In this document: positions 49,622-57,115 of the stretch, piece by piece | Position numbering within the stretch: the first letter of the stretch is position 1 | Layout of the letters: every line of letters starts with the position of its first letter | Assembly (NCBI GenBank): GCA_024648695.1 | Contig: JACAVV010000006.1 | Span: 1-64,000 of the forward strand | From: Nitrospina sp. | GTDB taxonomy: Bacteria > Nitrospinota > Nitrospinia > Nitrospinales > JACRGP01 | Reading direction: 5' to 3' | Length of the DNA: 64,000 nucleotides | Notes under the pieces: generated by a model | Database searches by the model: none | Told to the model about the DNA's origin: nothing | What the model saw: only the letters and a program-made list of their open reading frames with translations | Position numbers and translations under genes: made by a program

Positions 49622-50386
49622 TTATCCAAAAAATTTTCTTAGGGCCCCTAAAAAAGATGTCCTAAGTTCTTCCAAACGGGCGGTATCCACCGATAATGTT
49701 TCCCGATTGAACCACGGTTGTTTAAGATACAAAGAACGGTTCATCTCGATTTGTATCCAGGGGAGGGGAGCATTGCCGTATTTCTTTGTGATAAAACCTC
49801 CCGCAAAGGGTTGGTTGATTGTGACTTCATTCTCTCCTAATTGAAAACTTTCCCGAAAGCATTCAGCTAATTTTTCTGCCCACTCATTGGGACAACTTTC
49901 CCCATGATTGTTTCCAAGGCAAATCATGGGCCGTTCTTGCCCTCTATCCGGTGAAATTTCAGGACCGATGGCCTCCATTGAGTGACAGTCCAGCGCCAAT
50001 TGAAGGCCTGGTTGTTTTGCAAGCAGGTCGACGATTTTTTGATGGTAGACATGATAATAACCCTGAATCAATTTTTTAATTAAAGGTTCACCCGGAAAGT
50101 CGTCATACCGGTAGATGGCTTTCCCATGACAGGTCCGTGTTTTAATAATGCCATCCGGGTTTTTCGGTGGCCGATCTAGCACATCCCGGTTTAAATCGAT
50201 GATGGCTCTGGCAATTTTTGTTTCAACCAAAGCCATGACATTTTCTTTTATTCCATAAATTTCACGAGTAAAGGAATCACTATCTTCAAACAAATCTTTT
50301 GAGGAAAGGCAAACTTTATCAATAACTTCAGAAGGCACTAGATCTCCCCCATGAGGGATTGAAATTAAAATAGGTAAATAACTCAA
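49622..50386 (-). CDS. N-formylglutamate amidohydrolase family protein
   Basis: This 254-residue zinc hydrolase family member has LISIPHGGDLVPSEV, the DLNRDVLDRPP motif, ALDCHSMEAIGP and INQPFAGGFITKKYG...IQIEMNRSLYL. Family enzymes cut N-formylglutamate (end of histidine degradation) or related N-acyl amino acids. No hut genes are in the window, so the substrate may differ. It converges on the transketolase pair and lies 5-7 kb from two gamma-glutamyltransferases, but no operon link is seen. Confidence 0.86.
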   Translation of the reverse strand: MSYLPILISIPHGGDLVPSEVIDKVCLSSKDLFEDSDSFTREIYGIKENVMALVETKIARAIIDLNRDVLDRPPKNPDGIIKTRTCHGKAIYRYDDFPGEPLIKKLIQGYYHVYHQKIVDLLAKQPGLQLALDCHSMEAIGPEISPDRGQERPMICLGNNHGESCPNEWAEKLAECFRESFQLGENEVTINQPFAGGFITKKYGNAPLPWIQIEMNRSLYLKQPWFNRETLSVDTARLEELRTSFLGALRKFFG

Positions 50387-50954: not shown

Positions 50955-51233
50955 ATGTCTAAAACCATGAAAAGTCTGATTTCCGTTTTAACTCTGCTGA
51001 TGTTTGTATTCGTGTCAAACCTTGCATTCGCTAATTCGGAGTTTCAAAAACTCGGAATTGATAACGTTTCTGGATTCCAAAGCAAATCCCTGATCCTTAT
51101 GAATGACGACGAGGAAAAAGGTGATGGTGAAGAAGATGACAGGGGTGACGGCGATGACGAGGAAAAAGGTGATGGTGAAGAAGACGACAGGGGTGACGGC
51201 GATGACGAGGAAAAAGGTGATGATAAAGATTAA
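50955..51233 (+). CDS. Small secreted, highly acidic Asp/Glu/Gly repeat protein
   Basis: This 92-residue protein has a clear Sec signal peptide ending SNLAFA, a short neutral segment, and then two and a half copies of a 16-residue unit DDEEKGDGEEDDRGDG. The mature C-terminus is almost wholly Asp, Glu and Gly with single Lys/Arg residues, so it should be disordered and could bind Ca2+ or other cations. GGAG precedes the start. No family is recognised. It is monocistronic with a stem-loop behind it. The neighbouring ggt operon is convergent. Confidence 0.72.
   Translation: MSKTMKSLISVLTLLMFVFVSNLAFANSEFQKLGIDNVSGFQSKSLILMNDDEEKGDGEEDDRGDGDDEEKGDGEEDDRGDGDDEEKGDDKD
51105..51233 (+). repeat. 48-nt tandem repeat, 2.7 copies
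   Basis: Units at 51105-51152 and 51153-51200, and a truncated third unit from 51201, differ by only a few bases, such as GAC/GAT and GAT/GAC changes. They encode the acidic 16-residue repeats. Near identity at DNA level points to recent slippage or unequal exchange, so copy number may vary between strains. Confidence 0.85.
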
Positions 51234-51336: not shown

Positions 51337-52971
51337 TCAGGAGGGTCCCTCAGCAGTGCCATCACGGCGGATTTCTGCCACTCCTTGAAACTCATCTTTC
51401 GTTTGGGCTTTCAATACTCCATGAACAGCTCCCAAATAAAAGGACCACGGTTCCCTTCGATCCAATTTATACCCCACCTGCTCCAGATACTTAATCGTGT
51501 CCAAATCGAATCGGTCTGCCTCCAGACTCAGTTTTCCTCCAACCGAACAATGTAACCGTGGTTTCAGCATGGCTTCACTTATTGGAAGATCGCAATCGAT
51601 AATGTGAGAAAGAAACTGACCCATGGCTGAAAATATACGATCACTTCCAGGACTTCCTGCAACCAACCAGGGCTTATCCTTATAAAATGCAATGATAGGA
51701 GCGACAGAACTCCACGGAATCGCATTGGGCCTTAAATAGTAAGGGTGAGAAGGGTCGCTGGTATCCAGGGAACTCATGTAGTTGTTGTAGAGAAAACCCA
51801 ATCCTCGTGCCGCAACCTTGGCTCCATAAACAAGTTCAATGGACTGTGTGATTCCAATAGCATTGCCTTCTGAATCCATCACCGATAAATGGGTGGTGTC
51901 GTTACTCAAGGAAAAGAGCTCTGTTAAAGGCAGAGCAGGGTCGATGCCATCCCTGATGGAAGCAGAAAGCTGACGTGCAAAATCCACACTGAGAATTTTT
52001 TTATCATGAGGCAATTGCGGATAAATATTGGGATCGAAAGGACGCTCTTTATGATTGAGAAGACCTTTACGAATGGTTTCTGCGAGAAAATGATATTTTT
52101 TTGGACTGGGATTCCTTAAAAATTTGGAGGGCAGGTTTTTCAACATTTGCATTACCAGGAGCAAAGTACGGCCTGCTCCCGGAGGTGGGCTTGTGAAGAT
52201 CTTTACCTTTCTGTAAGTCCGTCGAATCGGCTTTCTCTCAATCGGCCAGGGTGTGAGCGCCAGGTCCTCGGCTCGAAGAAAGCCCTCATGAAACCGCATG
52301 TCCTCGTCAATTTGCTTGGCCACGTCTCCTGTATAAAAGGCTTTCACTCCATGCTGAGCCAGATGATCCAGCAATCCGGCAAGGTCCTGTTGAACAAAGG
52401 TATCTCCTACAGCATACGGTTCTTTTCCTTCTTTCAGAAAATATTTGGCTCCGGACAGGGAATCCATTCCAAGAAACTTATCCAGTTCCCTTTTTTGAAG
52501 TCCATGCTGAAGCTCGGTTATGGCATAACCCTCCCTGGCGATTTGTATGGCGGGTTGCAATATCTCCCTCCAGTCCAGTTTTCCGTAGCGGAAATGCAAA
52601 TAACCCAAAACCGCAGGAGTGCTGGGAACCGTAGTCGATTTATAACCGCGAAAGCGGTGTTTTTTCTTGTCCATTCGGTCAATATGCGCAAGAGATGGAA
52701 CCCTGCTGGAACCGTCGATGGCTATGGTTTTACCCTGAAAATGAAGAATGGCCATGGATTGTCCACCTATACCGCTGGCCTGAGGTTCACAGACACTCAA
52801 GGCAAAAGCCGCGGCGCAGGCGGCATCAATTGCATTACCTCCCATTCGAAGCATTTGGACACCCGCTTCCGTAGCCTGGGGAAAAGCGGTTGAAACCATG
52901 CCCTTTTTCGAAACAGCACATTTGCCATCTTCCGTAGGTTGGAAACGACCTTCAATTTTTTCAATTTTCAT
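51337..52971 (-). CDS. ggt: Gamma-glutamyltransferase family protein without signal peptide
   Basis: This 544-residue Ntn-hydrolase is of the GGT family. The self-processing and catalytic threonine is Thr359 in NDTTHLSVMD, with GGNAIDAACAAAFALSV and AVLGYLHFRYGKL upstream and the small-subunit SSVAPIIAFYKD...LVAGSPGSDRI downstream. There is no N-terminal signal sequence (MKIEKIEGRFQPTED), unlike classical periplasmic GGT, so it is probably cytoplasmic. Its start overlaps the stop of the ATP-grasp gene (TAATG). The pair suggests that the ligase product and this transferase/hydrolase act on the same gamma-glutamyl or related peptide. Confidence 0.9.
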   Translation of the reverse strand: MKIEKIEGRFQPTEDGKCAVSKKGMVSTAFPQATEAGVQMLRMGGNAIDAACAAAFALSVCEPQASGIGGQSMAILHFQGKTIAIDGSSRVPSLAHIDRMDKKKHRFRGYKSTTVPSTPAVLGYLHFRYGKLDWREILQPAIQIAREGYAITELQHGLQKRELDKFLGMDSLSGAKYFLKEGKEPYAVGDTFVQQDLAGLLDHLAQHGVKAFYTGDVAKQIDEDMRFHEGFLRAEDLALTPWPIERKPIRRTYRKVKIFTSPPPGAGRTLLLVMQMLKNLPSKFLRNPSPKKYHFLAETIRKGLLNHKERPFDPNIYPQLPHDKKILSVDFARQLSASIRDGIDPALPLTELFSLSNDTTHLSVMDSEGNAIGITQSIELVYGAKVAARGLGFLYNNYMSSLDTSDPSHPYYLRPNAIPWSSVAPIIAFYKDKPWLVAGSPGSDRIFSAMGQFLSHIIDCDLPISEAMLKPRLHCSVGGKLSLEADRFDLDTIKYLEQVGYKLDRREPWSFYLGAVHGVLKAQTKDEFQGVAEIRRDGTAEGPS

Positions 52972-55163
52972 TAGGCGAAATTCTTTGAAGTTTTATAAAT
53001 GAGATATGCAAGAAGGACACTTCTATCAATCAAACTGTCTCTTACAATAAACTCGTTTTTAGTCCCCGTACCCCCAGTAACAGGCCCAAAACCATCAATT
53101 GCAGGGACCCCATCGGAAACATAGGACAAGGGGGTGGAAGTCGGGTTTTCGTGTTCTTTTATACGAACTTCGACCAGTTTGGCGATTCGTTCCAATTCGC
53201 CAAAAAACTTTACGGTCTGTTCATTAGAAAGAAAGGGCGGTCGTTGGGGACCTTTGGTGATATGGATTTTGATATTTTCGGTGCTTTTGGCCTCAAACAA
53301 TTTATTGATGCGTTCTTCGAGAATACTACGTTGATCCGGATTTTGATAACGAATCACAAAGGATAAAGCCACATGATAAGCAGGCTGGTTTTCTATTCCT
53401 TTGGATTCAACACCGGTAAGGGTCAGGAATGCCCCTTCAGAAGCTGAGTTCATTTTTTTTAATTGATGCATTTTTTGAGAGATAAAGAGAAGTAAATCTT
53501 CTCCTTCTGAAATAGATTTAATCGTTGACCGGGTATGACGTTTGTTGATTTCAATGTCAAACTTCATTGAACCAAAACAGGATATCATCACTTCACCGGA
53601 AAGACCCGCACCACTTAAACCCGCAATATAACGGGATTTTTTGGAAATTTCTTCCAGGATAGGTTTGGAGGAACGACCCCCTCTGGAATCGTCCGTAATA
53701 AACAAGATCCCAACCTTTAATTTTTTCAGGGTTCGCGTATGGCGCAGAGCCTGTAAAGCTCCCAGTAAGACAGCCAACCCACCCTTGCCTCTGGAAACCC
53801 CTGTTCCATAGAGTCGTCCCCTTTCTTCGGAGAAGGGGGTGTAATCCTCAAAATCTGATGGGTTATCAAGGTTTCCAACAAGCAGGATATCGTTCTTTTC
53901 ATCCATGTGATTGCTAAAATACAAAATGTTTCCCAACTCGGCTCTGCTATAAACCTGGCGATTGAACCCCATAGTAGACAATTTATTGGAAACCCATCGG
54001 CCCAGAGAGTTGACTCCTTCAATATTTTCATAGAAAGAATTGATGTCGACCATCTTTTCCAGATTGTCCTCCATGGTAATGAGATTTCCACGGAGATAAC
54101 TTCTTAACCGCACCCTCAAAGGATCACTTTTAGTTTTCTCCTCTTGTTGCACTTCCACCGAAATTTGATCCATTTGCTGATTCCCAAAGTATCGTTCGAC
54201 AGCAACGTCCAGCATCCGGTTGATCATGGATTCATAGGAATAACCCGCCTTTTTAGCCGAAAAGACATAACTTCCCGTTTCTCCCAAACTGGCCATGGAG
54301 TTTAATTCCAGAATGTACAGGTTGCCTTCACTGTCCATACGGTAATCCACTCGGCAAAAGTCATAGATCCCCAGTACGTTAAATGTTTCTTTCGTCAAGC
54401 GGCGCATTTCTTCAGCAAGCCCTTCCTCAATTTCTGCTGGGCAAATTTTTCTTTTTGGGGTCTTAAGCTTATCTTCCAATGATTGAATAGCATTGGGGTC
54501 GCCCTCCAGGTCGATTTCAACTATAGGCAATACCTCAGCATTGTTGTTTCCGAGCAGACCAACTGCAAACTCCCTTCCAGGTATGAATTGTTCGACCAAA
54601 ACCGGTTGTTTGAACTGGTCGACCAGGTTGGCAATGGCAACTTTCAGGGATTGCGTATCATGAACCACCTGAATGCCTAATGAAACAGCTTCCATCTTGG
54701 GTTTTGTAATGACGGGAAAAGGTAAATCATCGGGAATCTGATCGACATTGTAAAAAACCCAGTAAGGTGCTGTAGGAAGTCCTGCGGCGTGAATCATGAC
54801 TTTAGTTGAAACTTTGTCCAGAGCAATCCCGTGGCCTGCTGGGCTGGATCCTACATAGGGCACACCCAGCATTTCCAGTAATGATGGAATATGGGTATAA
54901 CGGCTGACACCCTGGAGCCCATATGCCATGTTGAAAACCATACCCGGTTGTTCACCCTGAACAACCCGGGGCATGAAGGTTTGAAGTTGCTCAATAACGT
55001 TGATATTTCCGTCAATCACCCGGACATTGTGTCCACCCTTTTCCAGGGCAGAAGCTACCTTTTCTACCGTTTTAGGGTTGTATGTTTCCTGGTTTTGCAT
55101 TCCAAAAACATTGATCACTCCTTCAACATCTTGCTTCTTATTAAATATCACTGCCACTTTCAT
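52971..55163 (-). CDS. ATP-grasp ligase (D-Ala-D-Ala ligase-like) fused to a metal-site-less M20 peptidase-like domain
   Basis: The ATG at 55163 (MKVAVIFNKK, with GAGGTG ahead) gives 730 residues. Residues 1-330 form a D-Ala-D-Ala-ligase-type ATP-grasp domain: IPSLLEMLGVPYVGSSPAG, PFPVITKPK, VLVEQFIPGREFAVG, and CRVDYRMDSEGNLYILELNSMASLGETGSY with its metal ligands. Residues about 370-730 follow the M20/carboxypeptidase G2 layout: ILLVGNLDN, RLYGTGVSRGKGG, FITDDSRGG and GGTGTKNEF. Aligned by eye to that family, the five metal ligands become Asn431, Arg458, Ser493, Ser517 and Thr699, so it is unlikely to bind two zincs. The ligase domain appears functional. It is followed by the coupled ggt gene. 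The substrate is unknown; joining two amino acids or peptides is the family reaction. Confidence 0.85.
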   Translation of the reverse strand: MKVAVIFNKKQDVEGVINVFGMQNQETYNPKTVEKVASALEKGGHNVRVIDGNINVIEQLQTFMPRVVQGEQPGMVFNMAYGLQGVSRYTHIPSLLEMLGVPYVGSSPAGHGIALDKVSTKVMIHAAGLPTAPYWVFYNVDQIPDDLPFPVITKPKMEAVSLGIQVVHDTQSLKVAIANLVDQFKQPVLVEQFIPGREFAVGLLGNNNAEVLPIVEIDLEGDPNAIQSLEDKLKTPKRKICPAEIEEGLAEEMRRLTKETFNVLGIYDFCRVDYRMDSEGNLYILELNSMASLGETGSYVFSAKKAGYSYESMINRMLDVAVERYFGNQQMDQISVEVQQEEKTKSDPLRVRLRSYLRGNLITMEDNLEKMVDINSFYENIEGVNSLGRWVSNKLSTMGFNRQVYSRAELGNILYFSNHMDEKNDILLVGNLDNPSDFEDYTPFSEERGRLYGTGVSRGKGGLAVLLGALQALRHTRTLKKLKVGILFITDDSRGGRSSKPILEEISKKSRYIAGLSGAGLSGEVMISCFGSMKFDIEINKRHTRSTIKSISEGEDLLLFISQKMHQLKKMNSASEGAFLTLTGVESKGIENQPAYHVALSFVIRYQNPDQRSILEERINKLFEAKSTENIKIHITKGPQRPPFLSNEQTVKFFGELERIAKLVEVRIKEHENPTSTPLSYVSDGVPAIDGFGPVTGGTGTKNEFIVRDSLIDRSVLLAYLIYKTSKNFA

Positions 55164-55363: not shown

Positions 55364-57115
55364 TTAATAACCCAGGGTTAACGCACCGGGACGACGCGGA
55401 TCGGATGCCCCGGTGAATCTATTTTCATCCCTCAGTACGGATTGAGTTGACCCCATTGCGTTTTTTACAACAATTTTGTGTCCCTTTGTAGCCAACAAGC
55501 GGAGGGTATCGGGATTGAATCCTTTTTCGACCCTGAGTTTATCAGGATGCCATTGGTGATGGATTCTTTTTGCATTTGTGGCCTCGGCAACGTTCATCTC
55601 GTGATCAATTACATTAATGATAACTTGAAGAATGGCGTTGATCAAACGAGGTCCTCCCGGACTTCCCGTTGCCAGATAAGGTTTGCCCTCTTTAAGAATA
55701 ATCATGGGAGACATGGAACTCAGAGGCCGTTTAGTGGGTTGAATGGCATTGGCCCGTCCCCCAAGTAACCCATAAGCATTGGGAACACCCTCTTTAGCTG
55801 AAAAATTATCCATTTCGTCGTTTAAAAGAATTCCTGTTCCCTTGATAACGATGCCGGATCCGAAACTGAAATTCAAGGTGGTGGTGTTCGAAACAATATT
55901 TCCGTATTGATCCATTATGGAAAAATGGGTGGTCTCATCACTTTCAAAGGGATCCGGGCTTTCGGGTTTAATTTTCCTGGAAGGCCGGGTTTGGTAAGGA
56001 TTGATTTTTTTGCGAATCTTATTTGCGTAATCTTTAGAGATCAGGCCACTGATCGGGACCGTCCACCAATCCTGATCTCCTAAATATTTACTCCTGTCGG
56101 CAAAAGCAAACTTCATGGATTCGGCCATCAGGTGCAGGGATTCGGCGCTGTTTGGGCCAAGGTATCCTAAAGGGTATTGTTCCAGGATATTAAGCATCTG
56201 GATAATATGGATACCCCCGGAACTGGGCGGTGGCATACCATAAACATCATAACCCCTGTAGGTACCGTGGACTGGCTCTCTTTCCTTAACCCGGTAGTTT
56301 TTTAAATCCTCGAAAGTGATGTGCCCATCGTGCTCCTCCATGTCTGCCACTATTTTTTGAGCGATCTCTCCCTCATAAAATACCTTTGGGCCTTTTTCAG
56401 AAATTTGTCTCAAGGATTCTGCTAATTCCTTAAAATACATGCGCTCACCTACTTGATAAACCGAACCATCTTCCTTGAAATAGATCCTTTTGGTTTCCTC
56501 CCATTTTTGTAACCGTTCCTTACCTTTGCTTAAAGTAAATACATGATCCTGGTTGACAATGATTCCCTCCTCGGCCAGGCGAATGGCGGGAGCCATCACT
56601 TCTTTCAAGGTCAAGGTGCCATATTTTTTCAGCACATGGCAAAGCCCGGCAACTGAGCCCGGAACTCCTGCAGATTTGTAAGAAGACTGGGCCAAATACT
56701 CATCGACTTCTTGATTATTATCCAGATACATATCGGGTTCAGAAGCCAATGGAGCCGTTTCGCGGTAATCCACCGAAAAAACTTTATTGTCTTTGGCGGA
56801 GTATCCCATGAAAAATCCACCTCCCCCAATATTTCCTGCACGGGGAAGAGTGACAGCCAGTGCAAAACCAACGGCCACTGCCGCATCAAATGCGTTTCCT
56901 CCTTTTTTTAATATTTCAACCCCGATTCGCGTCGCGTTTTCTTCCTGGCTTGCAACCATTCCATTATTAGCCAGTACAGGATGAAAAATATCTTCCTGTT
57001 CATAAATTCCACCCTGAAAGGAAAGACCCATCGCAGGCAATATAAAAAGAGAACAGGAAAGCGTAACCACCATAATTTTTGAATGAGTTGTTTTTAGAAA
57101 ATCACAAATTTGCAT
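55364..57115 (-). CDS. ggt: Exported gamma-glutamyltransferase
   Basis: This 583-residue GGT has an N-terminal signal segment (IMVVTLSCSLFILPAMG). The large subunit has GGNAFDAAVAVGFALAVTLPRAGNIGGGGFFMGY, and the catalytic threonine is Thr395 in DETTHFSIMD. The small subunit has NTTTLNFSFGSGI, GILLNDEMDNFS and SSMSPMIILKEGKPYLATGSPGG. It should process itself in the periplasm and cleave glutathione or other gamma-glutamyl compounds. It is of classical length. It lies 200 bases upstream of the ATP-grasp/ggt pair on the same strand and has its own signal, so it may be the extracytoplasmic arm of the same pathway. Confidence 0.93.
   Translation of the reverse strand: MQICDFLKTTHSKIMVVTLSCSLFILPAMGLSFQGGIYEQEDIFHPVLANNGMVASQEENATRIGVEILKKGGNAFDAAVAVGFALAVTLPRAGNIGGGGFFMGYSAKDNKVFSVDYRETAPLASEPDMYLDNNQEVDEYLAQSSYKSAGVPGSVAGLCHVLKKYGTLTLKEVMAPAIRLAEEGIIVNQDHVFTLSKGKERLQKWEETKRIYFKEDGSVYQVGERMYFKELAESLRQISEKGPKVFYEGEIAQKIVADMEEHDGHITFEDLKNYRVKEREPVHGTYRGYDVYGMPPPSSGGIHIIQMLNILEQYPLGYLGPNSAESLHLMAESMKFAFADRSKYLGDQDWWTVPISGLISKDYANKIRKKINPYQTRPSRKIKPESPDPFESDETTHFSIMDQYGNIVSNTTTLNFSFGSGIVIKGTGILLNDEMDNFSAKEGVPNAYGLLGGRANAIQPTKRPLSSMSPMIILKEGKPYLATGSPGGPRLINAILQVIINVIDHEMNVAEATNAKRIHHQWHPDKLRVEKGFNPDTLRLLATKGHKIVVKNAMGSTQSVLRDENRFTGASDPRRPGALTLGY

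Follow-up and report, generated by a model that had tools for sequence, protein, structure and literature searches.

An ATP-grasp ligase joined to an M20-fold domain without a metal site, and its operon, in Nitrospinota and Planctomycetota

Why should an enzyme of a bond-forming class carry the fold of a peptidase in the same polypeptide? The question is raised by a gene of Nitrospina sp. (assembly GCA_024648695.1), located within the first 64,000 nucleotides of contig JACAVV010000006.1, a stretch analyzed as a whole and called the window below. The original prediction described this gene as an ATP-grasp ligase joined to an M20-like domain that had lost all metal ligands, and suggested that this domain had been recruited for substrate binding, dimerization, or allostery. 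The gene is read as a single open frame on the minus strand, with both Pfam domains above their cut-offs, and the plus strand over the same interval is riddled with stops. The frame begins with an ATG at position 55163, which is preceded by GAGGTG and matches M1 of the orthologs in the alignment. Its parts are as follows.

52971 to 55163, minus strand: fusion gene, 730 amino acids, Ddl-type ATP-grasp amidoligase with a catalytically dead M20 domain (open frame, Pfam and NCBIfam, orthologs in 23 Nitrospinota genomes)
54186 to 55163, minus strand: ATP-grasp domain, residues 1 to 326 (Pfam, alignment, structure model)
54126 to 54179, minus strand: flexible linker, residues 329 to 346 (predicted local distance difference test score below 50)
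52989 to 54068, minus strand: M20-fold, carboxypeptidase G2-like domain without a metal site, residues 366 to 725 (Pfam, phmmer to 1cg2, Foldseek)

The two halves of the fusion protein

The second half of the protein matches Pfam Peptidase_M20 over residues 443 to 723 (E value of 1.9e-13; 51.3 bits against a gathering cut-off of 24.6) and aligns by phmmer with 1cg2 at an E value of 2.6e-11; this is carboxypeptidase G2 (CPG2; PDB 1cg2 and 6xj5), and among M20 proteins of solved structure it is the nearest in sequence. Two AlphaFold models show the M20 fold that the original prediction had expected, with its catalytic and lid subdomains, and a Foldseek search with the AlphaFold2 model retrieved CPG2 as the top match (E value of 6e-28; TM-score of about 0.72 by target). 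In CPG2, zinc is bound by His112, the metal-bridging Asp141, Glu176, Glu200, and His385, with Glu175 serving as the general base. The corresponding positions in the fusion protein are the following.

53871 to 53873, minus strand: N431, at the His112 position (phmmer and MAFFT agree)
53790 to 53792, minus strand: R458, at the Asp141 position (phmmer and MAFFT agree)
53685 to 53690, minus strand: D492 and S493, at the Glu175 and Glu176 positions (phmmer and MAFFT agree)
53613 to 53615, minus strand: S517, at the Glu200 position (phmmer and MAFFT agree)
53064 to 53069, minus strand: T699 (phmmer) or G700 (MAFFT, one column off), at the His385 position; neither is a histidine

The five zinc-ligand positions had been read by eye as N, R, S, S, and T (431, 458, 493, 517, and 699); phmmer returned the identical set, and MAFFT departs from it only at the last position. 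The catalytic base position, on which the original prediction was silent, is acidic here (D492). Two active M20 proteins passed through the same alignment procedure (L134 and L170) yielded H/D/E/E/E/H, showing that the ligand loss is not an artifact of alignment. Judged by fold and sequence, the domain is an M20 homologue that lacks the defining metal site.

The first half carries a match to Dala_Dala_lig_C (residues 125 to 318; E value of 2.1e-31, above the gathering cut-off). Nine ATP- and Mg-binding residues (K117, K154, E191, E198, K232, R271, D273, E286, and N288) are invariant in 32 of 32 aligned sequences, standalone relatives included. This half was modeled poorly from 14 sequences and well in a second model from 32 sequences, and Foldseek of the AlphaFold model found a resemblance to the Ddl fold with a TM-score of 0.84 by target.

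Loss of the metal site and history of the fusion

Whole-genome scans covered the Nitrospinota together with samples of Planctomycetota and Pseudomonadota; other phyla were reached through a scan of contigs for close relatives and through plasmids. The 37 fused sequences compared (25 Nitrospinota-type, 1 proteobacterial, and 11 planctomycete) include none with a full zinc ligand set. The Asp141 position is never acidic, and is occupied by R, T, H, Y, C, or W in Nitrospinota. At the Glu176 position, every one of the 26 copies of Nitrospinota type or from the proteobacterium has serine, and every one of the 11 planctomycete copies has glycine; the Glu200 position reads S, R, N, Q, or G and is likewise never acidic. 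The histidine positions are less uniform. His112 is retained in 6 of 11 planctomycete copies and varies among N, S, H, and Q in Nitrospinota, and a histidine stands at the 385 position in 6 of 10 planctomycete copies. The statement that all metal ligands are lost is therefore exact for the protein in the window and too broad for the family, where some relatives keep one or two histidines, although nowhere a complete site. Because planctomycete copies retain one or both histidine ligands, the simplest reading of the alignment is that the bridging aspartate and the two glutamate ligands were probably gone before the clades split, and that the histidines eroded later, mainly in Nitrospinota.

Other positions of the M20 half are better kept. 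The general-base position is Glu or Asp in 32 of the 37 sequences, and the aspartate of the HxD motif, D433, is invariant in both phyla. The motifs GKGG, GL.GAGL.GE, and RDSLIDR are invariant in Nitrospinota, where the equivalent of CPG2 Arg324 is mostly Arg, with Ser or Lys in some copies. Relocated ligands were also looked for, and the M20 half holds no His/Asp/Glu set common to both phyla; the sole invariant acidic or histidine residues of this half and its lead-in across both are E358, D425, and D484 (L157 numbering). A metal site moved elsewhere in the domain, which the original prediction had named as a finding that would speak against it, was rejected on these grounds.

Purifying selection acts on the M20 half. 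Among the 16 closest pairs, the ratio of nonsynonymous to synonymous substitution rates (dN/dS) is 0.03 to 0.14 for this half and 0.02 to 0.12 for the ligase half, and every complete copy found has an unbroken reading frame. The M20 half nevertheless diverges faster, with 24% of its positions invariant versus 54% in the ligase half. In a tree of the ATP-grasp domains, all fused forms make up one clade (support of 96/83) with the unfused forms outside; it contains a planctomycete branch (99/98) and a Nitrospinota branch (100/99), inside which the proteobacterial copy nests. The fusion occurs in 23 of 77 Nitrospinota genomes, all belonging to one order, and in 7 of 392 sampled Planctomycetota genomes, with 4 further genomes in the class of one of these. 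The proteobacterial copy lies on a single 3.74-Mb contig next to apparent flagellar genes and is the sole match among 250 genomes of its order; it is therefore a product of transfer and not of contamination. Loss in every relative seen, purifying selection, and a monophyletic fusion kept in two phyla and after transfer give good support to the proposal of a dead peptidase recruited for another role.

Four metagenome-assembled genomes labeled Planctomycetota, Phycisphaerales, Woeseiaceae, and Nitrosomonas (L032, L034, L036, and L041) hold Nitrospinota-like operons with copies 73 to 77% identical to that in the window; these are probably binning contamination. No standalone close M20 relative was found within Nitrospinota at an E value of 1e-6, and thus no direct active ancestor was identified. 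Other long ATP-grasp frames in this phylum proved to be methyltransferase-ATP-grasp fusions, not M20 fusions.

The operon, its neighbors, and unfused relatives

The fusion gene is followed on the same strand by two genes for hydrolase-type proteins.

51337 to 52971, minus strand: GGT1, GGT-like Ntn hydrolase, 544 amino acids, cytosolic-looking and without a signal peptide (PF01019, E value of 1e-108)
49622 to 50386, minus strand: FGase-like amidohydrolase (PF05013), 254 amino acids, third gene of the operon (Pfam)

The stop codon of the fusion and the start of GGT1 overlap in TAATG at 52969 to 52973, and GGT1 directly follows the fusion at every testable locus, 19 of 19 in Nitrospinota and 6 of 6 in Planctomycetota. 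The FGase gene, about 0.95 kb beyond GGT1 in the window, is found behind it at 15 of the 16 Nitrospinota loci that could be tested, some of which have a gap of about 1 kb, and again at 6 of 6 in Planctomycetota; both genes also accompany the transferred proteobacterial copy. GGT1 and FGase are probably both active, as they keep the motifs TTHLS and PH.G and DCH, respectively. Both match their Pfam families but score below the cut-offs of the curated equivalogs (GGT1 with 333.8 of 357.85 bits for GGT, TIGR00066; FGase with 93.1 of 278.75 bits for the N-formylglutamate deformylase HutG, TIGR02017), and they therefore probably act on other substrates than GGT and HutG do. A canonical second GGT with a signal-peptide-like start, GGT2 (55364 to 57115, minus strand), lies directly upstream of the fusion; it was rejected as an operon member because it is not a conserved neighbor in relatives.

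At three Nitrospinota loci (L043, L045, and L046) the fusion operon adjoins, on the same strand, genes for a CP-ATP-grasp protein, Alpha-E, and an Anbu-like proteasome subunit, with a transglutaminase also visible at L043 and L046. The Anbu-like proteins score slightly under the Pfam Proteasome cut-off and take their name from the operon context. Of the 23 genomes that carry the fusion, 17 also have Alpha-E, compared with 9 of the 54 that do not carry it (Fisher P value of 2.5e-6, kinship ignored); within the order the counts are 17 of 23 versus 9 of 41 (P value of 6e-5), and when completeness is 90% or more, 10 of 11 versus 6 of 20 (P value of 0.0015). Common descent and the incompleteness of genomes lower the weight of these P values. 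In the window itself, Anbu operon genes do not stand beside the fusion, and the Alpha-E gene of this genome is on another contig (C9). L046 further encodes RimK, an AstE/AspA-type hydrolase, and a RimB-type protein (L046:509-2888) a few kilobases from the fusion operon and the Anbu genes, so that several amidoligase systems cluster there. The conserved operon, its association with the Anbu genes, and the half-decayed planctomycete metal sites had no place in the original prediction.

The nearest standalone-type ATP-grasp domains are 42 to 45% identical to that of the fusion and occur in a 7TM_transglut fusion and on rhizobial plasmids. The former is a planctomycete protein (L163:6521-8968) that combines 7TM_transglut (PF14402) with an ATP-grasp from this family; an HlyD-type protein is encoded beside it. 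Among the latter, a plasmid of the soybean-associated Bradyrhizobium barranii (L205) carries an operon of KamA, GGT, 7TM_transglut, and ATP-grasp, whose GGT is 40% identical to GGT1 versus 33% to the canonical GGT2; relatives of this ATP-grasp are found on other rhizobial plasmids. Since unfused relatives include this operon, the pairing of ligase and GGT seems to be older than the fusion. Related ATP-grasp genes lie near aspartate decarboxylase and KamA in Mesorhizobium, and near a diaminobutyrate transaminase and an L-amino-acid-ligase-type ATP-grasp in Sinorhizobium meliloti. Such neighbors point, by gene context, to peptides with unusual amino acids; no KamA was seen at the fused loci.

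A sister family of Nitrospinota has standalone ATP-grasps (L072 to L079) that were set aside as counterparts, being without M20 and neighboring KamA or other genes. In four of these loci (L072 and L074 to L076), a lysine 2,3-aminomutase-like gene directly adjoins the ATP-grasp, and a second ATP-grasp stands beside a GNAT-like gene and a putative pyruvoyl arginine decarboxylase.

Predicted role and alternative readings

With slightly more confidence than doubt, we read the fusion protein as a small-molecule amidoligase with a noncatalytic pseudo-M20 module for binding or dimerization, the product of which is processed by the GGT-like and FGase-like enzymes. The ATP-grasp domain would activate a carboxylate with ATP and join it to an amine, probably of the amino-acid type. 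The C-terminal domain presumably descends from a CPG2-type M20 peptidase whose metal site was lost in the common ancestor of the fused forms, and would bind a substrate or product that is an amino acid or a peptide, keep the enzyme dimeric, or both. In the predicted order of steps, the Ntn hydrolase and the amidohydrolase would then transfer or remove acyl groups, making the operon a make-and-trim system for a peptide-like metabolite. In favor of this reading are the intact ATP-grasp residues, the dead M20 site, the dN/dS values, the single clade, the operon, the unfused relatives, and the Anbu link. Several points weigh against it. The candidate substrate-binding residues of the M20 half are weakly conserved, the Arg324 equivalent among them; the model of the whole fusion has a predicted TM-score of 0.54 and a disordered linker, so that the modeled arrangement of the domains is uncertain; and no biochemistry was found for any family member. 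More tentatively, the dead peptidase may still recognize a peptide-like molecule and present it to the ligase for extension, in a make-and-trim pathway that in some bacteria would work alongside Anbu.

It is rather unlikely that the M20 half is purely structural or allosteric, with its lid-type subdomain dimerizing the ligase and no pathway molecule bound. The free drift of the ancestral active-site residues in Nitrospinota, where the glycine-rich and C-terminal motifs are invariant, would fit such a role, but the acidic base position and the invariant D433 hint that the pocket is partly kept. The same base, together with the residual planctomycete histidines, might be taken to indicate a cryptic activity, through a single or relocated metal or a metal-free acyl transfer; with the three acidic ligand positions nonacidic throughout and no alternative set shared by both phyla, we consider this improbable. 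A functionless M20 half in the course of decay is hardly credible: it does diverge faster than the ligase half, yet the dN/dS values already contradict decay, frames are intact in complete copies, and both phyla as well as the horizontally transferred copy have kept the domain.

The ligase half invites a different alternative, a cell-wall D-Ala-D-Ala ligase with an accessory domain. The fusion shares the ATP-grasp fold and the ATP/Mg catalytic residues with Ddl, and its best NCBIfam matches are Ddl models, but these reach 154.1 of 243 and 135.7 of 245.65 bits, well under the cut-offs. The columns of DdlB Tyr216 and Ser281, which we take to be residues of the D-Ala site, read L233 and G297. The genomic context and the extra C-terminal domain differ as well, a separate Ddl is encoded elsewhere in the genome within a murC/murB to ftsQ/ftsA/ftsZ cluster (L061), and many relatives are without the fusion. 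A cell-wall role is therefore very doubtful, and the protein is an ATP-grasp enzyme by fold but apparently not a D-Ala-D-Ala ligase.

Compared with CPG2, which it resembles over the whole fold, the fusion has all zinc ligands replaced and its M20 domain placed behind an ATP-grasp, and hydrolysis is not expected. Loss of ligands with recruitment to noncatalytic roles is known from metallopeptidase pseudoenzymes (PMC11266112); a ligase-M20 case is apparently not among the examples of that review, whose text uses neither M28 nor carboxypeptidase G2 nor fused. The fusion was not described in the literature searched, which did not include the Iyer et al. (2009) survey of amidoligases. The fusion offers an old, cleanly defined, and testable example of a peptidase fold put to new use within a probable peptide-forming enzyme; its unfused relatives can serve as natural controls, and the metal sites that have decayed in part represent intermediates. 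It is carried by some marine and environmental bacteria, and through it the idea that a noncutting peptidase fold does useful work in an enzyme that makes peptides can be put to the test.

Amidoligases paired with hydrolases are found in several known systems. The Rlo operon of Pseudomonas aeruginosa encodes the peptidase RloA, the inactive transglutaminase-7TM protein RloB, and the ATP-grasp RloC (PMC12239564). As at the fusion locus, an ATP-grasp is encoded there together with a hydrolase-type protein that is dead and with a peptidase of antagonistic action, but its dead partner is a separate membrane-anchored transglutaminase and its active hydrolase a secreted retropepsin-like enzyme. The Anbu operon of CP-ATP-grasp, Alpha-E, Anbu, and transglutaminase (PMC6376114, PMC5666114) follows the same logic of ligase and Ntn hydrolase and directly adjoins the fusion operon at several Nitrospinota loci, but has another ATP-grasp class, another Ntn hydrolase, and no M20 domain. 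The physiological role of the Anbu system was without experimental confirmation as of PMC6376114, and the neighborhood described here adds a new clue to it. The rhizobial operon of L205 is close in its ATP-grasp (45% identical) and its GGT, nearer to GGT1, but its ligase is without M20, 7TM_transglut and an aminomutase are present, and no FGase was seen. The fusion system would work in a manner similar to Anbu, Rim, and Rlo and is a member of none, because its ligase class, its hydrolases, and its pseudo-M20 domain differ. The comparison of loci defines it as a three-gene operon found in two phyla.

Identity as a defense system was rejected, there being no PADLOC match. In the window, the interval that separates GGT1 from FGase contains an open reading frame of 92 amino acids in the other orientation (50955 to 51233, plus strand); it is without a Pfam match and has a signal-peptide-like start and an acidic repeat encoded by 2.5 copies of a 48-bp unit.

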